A DNA stretch of 64,000 nucleotides from Acidisphaera sp. S103. GTDB lineage: Bacteria > Pseudomonadota > Alphaproteobacteria > Acetobacterales > Acetobacteraceae. Positions within the stretch are counted from its first letter, which is position 1, and every line of letters starts with the position of its first letter. The notes beneath the pieces are model-generated. The model ran no database searches, had not been told where the DNA came from, and saw only the letters and a list, made by a program, of their open reading frames with translations. The stretch covers positions 58,223-122,222 of the forward strand of contig NZ_LMUJ01000063.1 in the NCBI RefSeq assembly GCF_009765975.1, written 5' to 3'. This document shows positions 30,205 through 36,220 of the stretch, one piece after another. A program made the translations under genes and the position numbers.

Positions 30205-31173
30205 TCAGTCTGCGGCCAATGAGGGACGGATTTCGTGTTCGGCGACGTATTTCTCGGCTTCCAGTGCCGCCATGCAGCCGGTTCCGGCCGCTGTGACCGC
30301 CTGGCGGAAGATTTTGTCCTGCACGTCGCCGGCCGCGAACACGCCGGGAACCGAGGTCCTTGTGCTTCCAGGCACGGTGCGGATGTAGCCGTCGGCGTCC
30401 ATGTCGACATGGCCGGCGAAGATCGCGGTGGTTGGGGAATGGCCGATGGCGATGAACACGCCATCCGCCGGCAGCACCGACTCGGCGCCCGTGGCGGTGT
30501 TGTGCAGGTGAACGCCGGTGACGACCTCGGGCGTGCCGCCGCCGACGATCTCCTTCACCGTGCTGTTCCAGATCACCTCGATCTTGGGATGGGCGAACAG
30601 CCTGTTCTGCAGGATTTTCTCGGCCCGCAGGCTGTCCCGGCGATGGATCAGCGTCACTTTCTCGGCGTGGTGGGTCAGATAAAGCGCTTCCTCCACCGCC
30701 GTGTTGCCGCCGCCGACCACCGCGACCGTCTTGCCGCGATAGAAGAACCCGTCGCATGTGGCGCACGCCGACACGCCGCGGCCTTGCAAGGTCTGCTCCG
30801 ACTCGAGACCGAGCCAGCGGGCTTGGGCGCCGGTGGCGATAACGATGGAGTCGGCCGTGTACAGGTCGCCCGAGTCGCCCTGGCACCGGAACGGTTGCTT
30901 CGAAAAATCCACGCTGGTGATCAGGTCGTGGATGACGTGGGTGCCGACATGGGTGGCCTGGGCCTCCATCTGCTCCATCAGCCACGGCCCTTGGATGACG
31001 TCGGCGAAGCCCGGGTAATTCTCAACGTCGGTGGTGATCATAAGCTGGCCGCCGGGCTGCATGCCCGCCACCAGGATCGGCGACAGGTTGGCGCGCGCGG
31101 CATAGATGGCGGCGGTATAGCCGGCGGGTCCGGCGCCGATGATCAGGACCTTGGTATGGTGGATTTGGCTCAT
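30205..31173 (-). CDS. trxB: thioredoxin reductase
   Basis: This 322-residue low-molecular-weight thioredoxin reductase has the FAD motif GAGPAG (13-18), the redox pair C137-A-T-C140 in SACATCDG, the NADPH motif [10 protein letters not shown] and the closing FAD motif FAAGDV. It uses NADPH to reduce thioredoxin in the cytoplasm. I used the ATG at 31173, which puts the usual short N-terminus ([15 protein letters not shown]) in place; the longer frame adds 15 residues that relatives lack. It is followed on the same strand by the LysR gene. Confidence 0.95.
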
Positions 31174-31288
31174 GCCTGAACATATCGGTGCGCCCGGGTT
31201 CGGGGCAAGCAACGCCATCGCAGCCGGCGATAGCCTGGTCGGCGTCGGATAAAAACACTCAAGGGAAACACGCGTGTACCGGGGATGG

Positions 31289-31364
31289 TGGTGGAGCTGA
31301 GGGGAATCGAACCCCTGACCTCCTCATTGCGAACGAGGCGCTCTCCCAACTGAGCTACAGCCCC
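31289..31364 (-). tRNA. tRNA-Ala (anticodon CGC)
   Basis: The minus strand folds into a full cloverleaf. The acceptor GGGGCTG pairs with CAGCTCC and includes the G3-U70 pair that marks alanine tRNAs. The D arm reads AGCTCAGTTGGGAGAGC, the anticodon loop is TTCGCAA (anticodon CGC, for codon GCG), the T loop is GTTCGAT, and A73 is followed by an encoded CCA. It stands alone between trxB and asnB. Confidence 0.97.
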
Positions 31365-31447: not shown

Positions 31448-33211
31448 TTACCGCGTCGAAAGTGTCTCCCACACATCGCCCGCCGGTGGCAGGCCCAGGA
31501 TGTGCCGGCGGTGCCACAATGCGTAGAACAGCAGTGCCCAACACGCGAAGCCGTGCCGCCAGCGGCGGATGTTTGCGAACAAGGCGGTCACCATCTCGGG
31601 GTGGGCGATCTCCGCCACGCCCGGCTGCGCGGCCACCAGCGGACCCAGGCGCGCACCCTGTGCTTTGATCCATTCGCCGACCGGCACGGTGAATCCGGAT
31701 TTGGGGGCGAAGGGCTGCGCGGCCGGCTGGTTCTTCTCCAGCCATTTCCGCAGGATCCATTTGCCCATGCCGCGCCGCAGTTTCATGTGGTCGGGCAGGC
31801 GATAGGCGGCGGCCATCACGCCGGAATCGAGGAACGGCGTGCGTCCCTCCACCGCATGGGCCATCATGCAGCGGTCCAGCTTCAGCAGCAGGTCGTGCGG
31901 CAGCCAGTCCGTCATGTCCAGCGCCTGGGCCGCCGCCAGCGGGGAGCGTCCGCCCTCGGCCGCCTGTAATTCGGCCGCGGCCATGCCGTCGTGCCAGGCG
32001 ACCGGCCGGTTGCGCAGGACCGGAACCTTGTCGAAATTGCCGCCGGCCCACATCGCCCGGCCGCCACGCCACCAGGGTAGCGTCGCCTGACGATAGCGTT
32101 TGTAGCCGCCGAAGATCTCGTCGCCACCCTCCCCGGTCAGCACGACCTTGACATCCTGGCGGGCTCGGCGGGCGAGGAACCAGGACGGGATGATGGCATA
32201 ATCCATGGTGGGATCGTCCATCGCGGCGACGATTTCCGGCAGATGCCGCCAGACCATCTTTTCGGTGACCTCGATCGACTCGTGCTTGGCGCCGACGGCG
32301 CGGGCGATCGCGGCGGCCTGTTCGCGTTCGTCGGCGGCGCCGGGGGCGTCGAAACCGGCGGTGAAGGCCAGCACCGGCTGGTCGTTGAGCCGAGCCATGA
32401 GGGTGATAAGGGTGGCGCTGTCGATGCCGCCGGACAGGAACATGCCATAGGGCACGTCGCTGCGCTGGTGCAGGTCGACACTTTCCATCAGCGCCTGGTC
32501 GAGTCGGCGCATCGCGGTGTCTTCGTCGATATCCTCGGGCGGTTCGGCGGGAACGGGGTTGATCCGACGCCGTTCCAGGATATGGCCGTCGGCGCAGGTT
32601 ATGCTCTCGCCGGGCAGGACGCGCTGGATGCCCTGGAAGATGGTATCGGCGCCGGTGGTGAACTGCAGTTGCAGCAGTTCCTCGACCGCGGCCGGCCGCA
32701 CGGCGCGCTTGACCAGGCCGGCTTCCAGCAGTGCCTGAGGTTCCGAACTGAAGGCCAGGCCGCCGTCGATCGTGGCGATGTAGAGCGGCTTGATACCGAA
32801 CGGGTCGCGCGTCAGGGTCACGGTGCGGCGCACCCGTTCATGGATGGCGATGCCGTACATGCCCCGAAGGTGCTTGGCATAGTCGAGCCCGTCGCGCAGC
32901 CACAGGTGCAGCGGCGGCTCGCAATCGCTGTTGGTGGCGAAGTTGACGCCGGGCAGCGACTCGCGCAATTCGCGGTAATTGTAGACCTCGCCGTTGGCGA
33001 CCAGAGTGGCAGGCCCGGCGAAAAACGGCTGGTCGCCGGTGGCAAGGTCGATGATTGCCAGGCGATTTTGCAGCAGCGCCACCCGGCCCATCACCGCATG
33101 GCCGGTGCCGTCGGGTCCGCGATGCTGCAGGGCGTCGATCAGCTTCGATAGGACCATGGGATCGGGTGGTGCGGCGCCGGAAGACAAGATCAGCCCAGCG
33201 ATGCCGCACAT
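31448..33211 (-). CDS. asnB: asparagine synthetase (glutamine-hydrolysing)
   Basis: This 587-residue protein has both AsnB domains. The N-terminal class II amidotransferase has catalytic C2 (MCGIAGL), RLAIIDL and NGEVYNY. The synthetase domain has the ATP-pyrophosphatase loop FLSGGIDSA (about 250-258) and GEGGDEIFGGYKRYR. It makes asparagine from aspartate, glutamine and ATP. Close relatives in polysaccharide clusters amidate sugars or lipopolysaccharide precursors; nothing here indicates such a role. The start at MCGIAG is fixed because the cysteine must be exposed at the N-terminus. Confidence 0.93.
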   Translation of the reverse strand: MCGIAGLILSSGAAPPDPMVLSKLIDALQHRGPDGTGHAVMGRVALLQNRLAIIDLATGDQPFFAGPATLVANGEVYNYRELRESLPGVNFATNSDCEPPLHLWLRDGLDYAKHLRGMYGIAIHERVRRTVTLTRDPFGIKPLYIATIDGGLAFSSEPQALLEAGLVKRAVRPAAVEELLQLQFTTGADTIFQGIQRVLPGESITCADGHILERRRINPVPAEPPEDIDEDTAMRRLDQALMESVDLHQRSDVPYGMFLSGGIDSATLITLMARLNDQPVLAFTAGFDAPGAADEREQAAAIARAVGAKHESIEVTEKMVWRHLPEIVAAMDDPTMDYAIIPSWFLARRARQDVKVVLTGEGGDEIFGGYKRYRQATLPWWRGGRAMWAGGNFDKVPVLRNRPVAWHDGMAAAELQAAEGGRSPLAAAQALDMTDWLPHDLLLKLDRCMMAHAVEGRTPFLDSGVMAAAYRLPDHMKLRRGMGKWILRKWLEKNQPAAQPFAPKSGFTVPVGEWIKAQGARLGPLVAAQPGVAEIAHPEMVTALFANIRRWRHGFACWALLFYALWHRRHILGLPPAGDVWETLSTR

Positions 33212-33660: not shown

Positions 33661-34032
33661 ATGCCGACCATCAACCAGCTTATCGCCCATGGGCGCGAGC
33701 GGCCGAAGACCCGGAACTCGGTTCCGGCGCTGCAAGGCTGCCCGCAGAAGCGTGGGGTTTGCACGCGCGTCTATACGACGACGCCGAAGAAGCCGAACTC
33801 GGCGCTGCGTAAAGTCGCGAAGGTTCGTCTGACCAACGGCTATGAGGTGGTGAGCTACATTCCCGGCGAAGGCCACAATTTGCAGGAACACTCGGTGGTT
33901 CTGATCCGCGGCGGACGCGTGAAGGATTTGCCGGGCGTTCGTTACCACATCCTGCGTGGCGTGCTGGATACCCAGGGCCTGCCCAAGCGTCGTCAGCGCC
34001 GGTCGCTGTATGGCGCGAAGCGGCCGAAGTAA
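33661..34032 (+). CDS. rpsL: 30S ribosomal protein S12
   Basis: The 123-residue sequence is standard uS12: [20 protein letters not shown], then [17 protein letters not shown] around the loop that monitors decoding and where streptomycin-resistance changes arise. It acts in the 30S decoding centre. A ribosome site AGAAAGAGG precedes the ATG. It opens the str operon, with rpsG 12 bases downstream. It is not next to rpoBC; asnB and a tRNA lie upstream instead. Confidence 0.98.
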
Positions 34033-34044
34033 GAGGGCGATCGC

Positions 34045-34521
34045 ATGTCTCGTCGTCACCGCGCCGATAAGCGCGAAATCCTGCCGGATGCGAAGTTCGG
34101 CGATGTCGTCCTCAGCCGTTTCATGAACGCGCTGATGTACGACGGCAAGAAGTCGGCTGCCGAGGGCATCGTCTACAATGCCCTGGACGTCCTGAAGCGG
34201 CGTGGCGGCAGTGCCGCCGACCCGATCCGGATGTTCCATGAGGCGCTGGACAACGTGAAGCCGGCGGTCGAAGTCCGGTCGCGGCGTGTTGGCGGTGCCA
34301 CGTATCAGGTGCCGGTCGAAGTCCGGGCGGAACGGCGTCAGGCGCTGGCGATCCGCTGGATCATCGATGCGGCCCGCAAGCGCGGGGAGCATACGATGCA
34401 GGATCGTTTGTCCAACGAGTTGCTGGATGCGGTGAACAACCGTGGTTCGGCGGTGAAGAAGCGTGAAGACACCCACCGGATGGCCGAAGCCAACAAGGCT
34501 TTCAGCCATTACCGCTGGTAG
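34045..34521 (+). CDS. rpsG: 30S ribosomal protein S7
   Basis: This 158-residue uS7 starts [20 protein letters not shown] and contains the conserved [19 protein letters not shown] and the hairpin [20 protein letters not shown], which contacts the E-site tRNA. It nucleates assembly of the 30S head, and in E. coli it represses its own operon. In most bacteria fusA follows directly; here the next gene, 64 bases on, is tuf. Confidence 0.98.
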
Positions 34522-34585
34522 CGTCAGCCTGCGTAAAATTTAGGTCACAACCCAAAAGATCCGGTGGATCTACGGAGATACGACG

Positions 34586-35776
<1,191 letters not shown>

Positions 35777-35911: not shown

Positions 35912-36220
35912 ATGGACAATCAGAATATCCGCATCCGCCTGAAGGCCTACGATCACCGCGTGCTGGACAACAGCACGAAGGAGATCGTGAACACGGCCAA
36001 GCGCACGGGTGCCCGGGTTCGCGGACCGATCCCGCTGCCGACCCATATCGAGCGTTTCACGGTGAACCGCTCCCCGCACGTGGACAAGAAAAGCCGTGAG
36101 CAGTTCGAGATCCGGACGCATCGGCGGCTGCTGGACATCGTGGAACCGACCCCGCAGACGGTGGACGCGCTGATGAAGCTCGACCTCGCCGCCGGCGTGG
36201 ATGTTGAGATCAAGATCTAA
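35912..36220 (+). CDS. rpsJ: 30S ribosomal protein S10
   Basis: This 102-residue uS10 ([20 protein letters not shown]) has the long loop residues of the 30S head and the [20 protein letters not shown] end. It is also NusE, part of antitermination complexes. It opens the S10 operon after the tuf terminator, and rplC begins 4 bases past its stop codon. Confidence 0.98.

Follow-up and report, generated by a model that had tools for sequence, protein, structure and literature searches.

The window (the whole 64,000-nucleotide stretch of DNA analysed here) carries a str operon in the order rpsL-rpsG-tuf, followed by rpsJ and then by further ribosomal protein genes in their usual order. Table 1 lists these genes and the other features discussed below; the identities of S12, S7 and EF-Tu are taken from NCBIfam equivalogs. 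Few features of bacteria are as well conserved as EF-G and the str operon. The locus resembles the classical rpsL-rpsG-fusA-tuf operon in the order and identity of rpsL, rpsG and tuf, with rpsJ next, but lacks fusA, the EF-G that serves the cell being of a different lineage and encoded at a different site. As the sequence-only reading had pointed out, and as the ORF coordinates bear out, rpsG ends at 34521 and tuf starts at 34586, 64 bases away, with no gene, and hence no str-operon fusA, between them. Inspection of this spacer found zero N and no coding remnant, and an RBS-like 'ggag' stands close before the tuf ATG. tuf itself is single in the genome, where a whole-genome profile search gave one full match and a next-best match of 80 bits.

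Table 1. Features of the str locus of the window, and the half-length EF-G relatives found in other genomes
Feature	Position	Strand	Basis or remark
trxB, thioredoxin reductase	30205-31218	-	TIGR01292, 415 bits
tRNA-Ala, anticodon CGC	31289-31364	-	ARAGORN
asnB-like asparagine synthase	31448-33211	-	TIGR01536, 392.9 bits; divergent from rpsL, in the place of rpoC
rpsL (ribosomal protein S12)	33661-34032	+	TIGR00981, 213.6 bits
rpsG (ribosomal protein S7)	34045-34521	+	TIGR01029, 227.7 bits
Spacer rpsG-tuf, 64 nt, usual slot of fusA	34522-34585	+	sequence
tuf (EF-Tu)	34586-35776	+	TIGR00485, 759.2 bits
rpsJ (S10)	35912-36220	+	ORF; S10 query matches the same place in relatives
Half-length EF-G relative	L030:1331-2530		conserved between rpsG and tuf
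Half-length EF-G relative	L184:3310-4500		conserved between rpsG and tuf
Half-length EF-G relative	L185	-	395 aa; conserved between rpsG and tuf

The asnB, tRNA and trxB genes proposed upstream of the str genes were confirmed by profile matches and ARAGORN. The tRNA is the only one that ARAGORN finds in the 64 kb; its anticodon is unusual for alanine and reads the Ala codon GCG. The earlier remark that the operon is not next to rpoBC holds in so far as rpoC lies on contig C80, but this has no part in the loss of fusA. G013 (L121) and G039 (L116) likewise carry asnB upstream of rpsL. rpoC is beside rpsL in all four other genomes of the family that were examined (G035, G037, G040 and G045), and it is upstream of rpsL in Lichenicoccus, Bombella and Komagataeibacter, where it was located by an RpoC motif. 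None of these rpoC-linked relatives has fusA after rpsG. Since relatives without fusA keep rpoC at rpsL, the break from rpoC was a separate and later event inside the family.

The sequence-only reading expected EF-G to be encoded elsewhere in this genome, and the whole-genome profile search found a single intact fusA on another contig (C85:174996-177071; 1015.7 bits against TIGR00484, EFG I). This is the sole match above the curated cut-off of the EF-G equivalog (659.4 bits); the next best is a separate, EFG II-like gene on C74 (348.7 bits), and the rest are fragments of at most 122 bits. All five domains are present (GTP_EFTU, EF-G_D2/GTP_EFTU_D2, EFG_III, EFG_IV and EFG_C), and the P-loop, DTPGH and the G4 region are intact. 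The gene has a GTG start after GGAGG and, as seen by eye, a hairpin and T run downstream. Its CAI is 0.791, that of tuf 0.822 and those of nine other genes 0.598-0.689. Here fusA stands alone, and its codon usage resembles that of tuf. Judging from its location, co-transcription with the genes for S12, S7 and EF-Tu would no longer be possible, and to this extent the proposed uncoupling of EF-G dosage from theirs stands. A GTG start looks common in the family, as 22 of the 30 extracted copies begin with V (e.g. L127:5991) and the rest partly reflect how the copies were cut.

Scanning 17 neighbour proteins gave no sign of a conserved new home for fusA in the family. The neighbours differ between genomes: the window's genome has DUF1800/DUF1501 genes and ketoacyl synthases, others have MFS, FlgI, ABC transporter or PEPcase genes; a DUF1800-type gene adjoins fusA at 11 of 20 loci, the window's own included. 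In two species of the window's genus, G031 (L128:7640-10324) and G014 (L129), fusA precedes rpsL by about 0.6 kb and has the DUF1800/DUF1501 neighbours that it has in the rest of the genus. Because a hairpin and T run separate the two genes in G031, fusA is probably an accidental neighbour of rpsL there and not a member of its operon; alternatively, the proximity could be a remnant of linkage.

The absence of fusA had been read as a trait of this genome. Instead, it extends across the family (Acetobacteraceae) as sampled: fusA was found within 1 kb after rpsG in none of the 35 genomes in which both genes were located, out of 46 including the window's own. tuf follows rpsG directly, with a spacer of 35-112 nt, in 23 family sequences, window included; Lichenicoccus roseus, Bombella apis and Komagataeibacter xylinus are among the 23. 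Three more family loci have no measurable spacer, one with an N run inside tuf (L113) and two at a contig edge (L116 and L129). In most family genomes lacking the adjacency, fusA and rpsG are on different contigs, which alone is no proof of separation; tuf was seen right after rpsG only in the 23 sequences. The comparison of str order with relatives that the sequence-only reading had called for gave the normal order outside the family, with fusA directly after rpsG in 23 of the 24 other Alphaproteobacteria in which both genes were located (32 genomes sampled); the 24th is G071, whose contig stops 107 bases after rpsG. In the set of 80 named rpsG loci, the next gene is EF-G in 76, tuf in three, all Acetobacteraceae, and a half-length EF-G relative in one (L030). 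The nearest named S7 relatives of the window are from Komagataeibacter (90% identity), Lichenicoccus (87%) and Bombella (87%). Besides its str rpsG, G045 has a second, shorter S7 match (C1:2112061-2112420; profile positions 38-154, 179.7 bits).

We refer to the EF-G of the str operon as A and to a separate EF-G lineage outside str as B. In local alignments the EF-G of the family is 53-61% identical to alphaproteobacterial str copies, little above its identity to gammaproteobacterial ones. In trees it falls outside the alphaproteobacterial str copies, which form a group of their own (97/94 in a 39-row tree), and instead groups with the off-operon EF-Gs of G078/G092/G093/G096, G059, G314, G138, G249, G071 and an Azospirillum thermophilum plasmid. 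The clade of family and B has SH-aLRT support of 99 in a 74-row tree and 100 in a 58-row tree; in the 39-row tree, together with two off-operon gammaproteobacterial copies, it has UFBoot 100 and SH-aLRT 99. Thus, the family EF-G shares a clade with the off-operon copies of genomes that have both types, and it shares their signature sites as well. At 19 alignment columns the family has the residue of B, which is rarely that of A, and Y51, N92, N118, L121, L441, L443 and a one-residue deletion at 326 occur in none of 28 str rows and none of 12 outgroup rows. Both B motifs are present in all 30 family EF-Gs extracted, and also in Lichenicoccus, Bombella and Komagataeibacter. Type also goes with place in the 23 loci that the class search gave: S7 adjoins all 21 that carry the A signature, and the two carrying the B signature lack both S7 and S12 over about 1.5 kb around them. 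Since trees, AU test (below), the 19 signature sites and the deletion agree in separating it from A, the sequences indicate that the EF-G of the family belongs to the other EF-G lineage and is not a relocated str gene. Another 25 columns, at which A and B agree and the family differs, may reflect later changes in each lineage.

Two other candidates for the replacement were rejected. To our knowledge, EFG II is a divergent EF-G-like subfamily that always occurs beside another EF-G; it is not the replacement here, as the family EF-G is type I and the EFG II-like copy is the separate gene on C74. spdEFG1 has a three-residue insertion (KDG) in switch I, according to Margus et al. (2011, PMC3150367), and the family's switch I aligns with type A without an insertion. 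G088 (L189), B by bit score, falls among A in the 74-row tree. L051 and L257 are the same sequence, and G093 and G341 look like one genome.

Genomes with an A adjoining rpsG and a B at another place, Azospirillum-type ones among them, number at least five (G059, G314, G138, G249 and G335); this count rests on the best 30 places of a search that matched 259 of 288 genomes, and further B copies may exist. Their A copies score 995-1015 bits, whereas most A copies in genomes without B score about 1064-1165 bits, one reduced genome giving 1026; this would fit a relaxed constraint on A in the presence of B. The A. thermophilum plasmid carries a B 76% identical to that of G078; rpsM and rpsK are on the same plasmid (NZ_CP029358.1, L283), with an ISAs1 transposase close by.

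In G078, G092 and G093, three of the 43 genomes of their order that were searched, no full type I EF-G other than B is present, and a protein of 395-399 residues occupies the place in str between S7 and EF-Tu. This half-length copy has no domains beyond the G domain and domain II, as scans of two of the three showed; arginine stands in for its P-loop lysine, and DTPGH is lost. Its dN/dS between G092 and G093 is 0.18, compared to 0.19 for B in the same pair; towards G078 it is 0.39-0.45, compared to 0.17-0.19 for B. On these ratios the copy is not simply decaying. The tree would allow A or B for it (UFBoot 90; AU test for B, p 0.506); we call it A because of its place, W51 in G092/G093, T67 and the lack of a deletion at 326. 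Three states are found among these genomes: A with B, half-length A with B, and B alone.

A parallel case is G207, from another family (f118), in which rpsG and tuf are 39 nt apart and EF-G is off-operon. Its EF-G is 75% identical to that of the window's genome and groups with the family's at 100/100. Within G207's own family, G375 (whole gene) and G299 (part) keep EF-G after rpsG, that of G375 being A-type by tree. S12 and S7 of G207, in a tree that left out L215, did not group with those of G375 and G299; they are placed outside the window's family by a marginal result (AU p 0.044, long branch). From the sequences, it looks as if G207 acquired a family-type EF-G by transfer and afterwards lost its str copy.

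The genome of the window lacks A in str and has one B, of separate ancestry. We consider it probable that the str EF-G was displaced by its off-operon relative and then lost, rather than moved. The ancestor of the family would have held a second, full-length EF-G of lineage B outside str. B would have taken over translocation and, by inference, recycling; A would then have become dispensable and been deleted, joining rpsG to tuf, with B left as the only full type I EF-G, as in the window's genome today. As no other full type I EF-G is present, B would do both translocation and recycling alone. The order of events, with A lost after the takeover by B, is likewise deduced.

How B arrived is a separate matter, and an ancient vertical paralogy bears on this point only, not on the displacement. 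Here A and B would both have been present in an early alphaproteobacterium, most lineages having lost B and the family A. B is indeed sister to all alphaproteobacterial str copies in rooted trees, as this history would have it. However, in an RpoC tree (G080, G045 and G067, for which fragments were extracted, being left out) the lineages bearing B are scattered, requiring four changes, of which at least three are forced by starred branches, and the B-bearing clade of G078 is nested among A-only genomes. G207 has a family-like B while its relatives have A, and the B clade also takes in two plasmid copies from Gammaproteobacteria. The scatter favours either lateral spread of B or many losses. 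We therefore regard vertical paralogy as a credible, though not the likelier, account, and lean slightly towards lateral gain of B over an old duplication.

In simple relocation, the str fusA itself would have moved in the ancestor of the family and then evolved fast. This agrees with the one EF-G per genome in the family and with its long stem branch (0.42-0.59), which leaves some room for long-branch attraction. The best match of the family EF-G among solved structures is EF-G 6not, at 943 bits far ahead of E. coli EF-G at 826 bits, and at 31 columns the family agrees with A against B. Of these columns 15 are inside insertions of B, and the agreement may reflect later changes in B itself. 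Against relocation, forcing the family with the str copies gave p 0.0048 in the AU test (delta lnL 50.7), the deletion and substitutions common to family and B are in none of the 28 str rows, and A and B coexist in at least five genomes; we think relocation improbable. An assembly gap or deletion artefact in the contig, which the sequence-only reading had named as what would overturn its claim and for which a draft genome of 116 contigs gives some room, has a negligible chance of explaining the missing fusA, because the junction has no N and recurs in 23 family sequences.

Several described systems bear on displacement by B. EFG I is normally in str, and a supplementary legend in PMC3150367 mentions two single-EFG genomes, unnamed in the text, with the gene outside str; these could be members of the window's family. 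The EF-G described here is like that EFG I in scoring above the equivalog cut-off with five domains, and differs in the family-wide off-str state with a distinct B-type EF-G. In Atkinson (2015, PMC4342817), gcEFG2 is a second EF-G copy of unknown function in some Cyanobacteria and Alpha- (nine), Beta- and Gammaproteobacteria, whereas B has no full-length EF-G partner in the window's genome. The off-operon copies on Catenovulum and Legionella lytica plasmids group with B, at a position in the clade supported by 80/43, and have the 326 deletion; they may be gcEFG2. Pseudomonas aeruginosa has a str and an off-str copy (EF-G1A/EF-G1B), and the assays in PMC3832671 assign translocation to the off-str copy, a precedent for such a role; unlike in the present case, the two are 84% identical and neither has been lost. 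P. putida EF-G2 (6n0i) is no nearer to B than is E. coli EF-G. We found no report of a replacement of EF-G in Acetobacteraceae in the open literature, subscription journals lying mostly outside the search, and in the passages searched of a phylogeny of the family (PMC10715153) the relevant terms occur once only, in a reference title.

A family-wide swap suggests that even a core factor of protein synthesis is replaceable. A family living on a non-orthologous EF-G offers a natural experiment on whether a paralogue can take over translocation and recycling entirely, and a str operon without fusA also tests the worth of co-transcription with S7 and EF-Tu. Genomes with A and B and the conserved half-length str copy offer testable intermediate states. 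Across Alphaproteobacteria, one annotation covers two lineages, which makes fusA an unsafe marker for phylogeny or typing. Taking all cases together, one might tentatively propose that an off-operon EF-G has repeatedly taken the place of the str EF-G in Alphaproteobacteria. Coexisting copies would divide the work, the str copy evolving faster; in one clade it would have been cut to the G domain and domain II, without P-loop lysine or DTPGH, and selection would maintain it, still encoded between S7 and EF-Tu, as a protein without GTPase activity that may act as a regulator or ribosome-binding partner. The window's family would be the end state, a once-secondary EF-G doing everything. We hold this wider picture to be possible but doubtful.

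Two plasmid records, Shewanella baltica pSbal03 (L284, 16.8 kb) and a Pseudomonas chlororaphis plasmid (L295, 16.6 kb), carry rpsG-fusA-tuf; they are either real plasmids or circularised pieces of chromosome.
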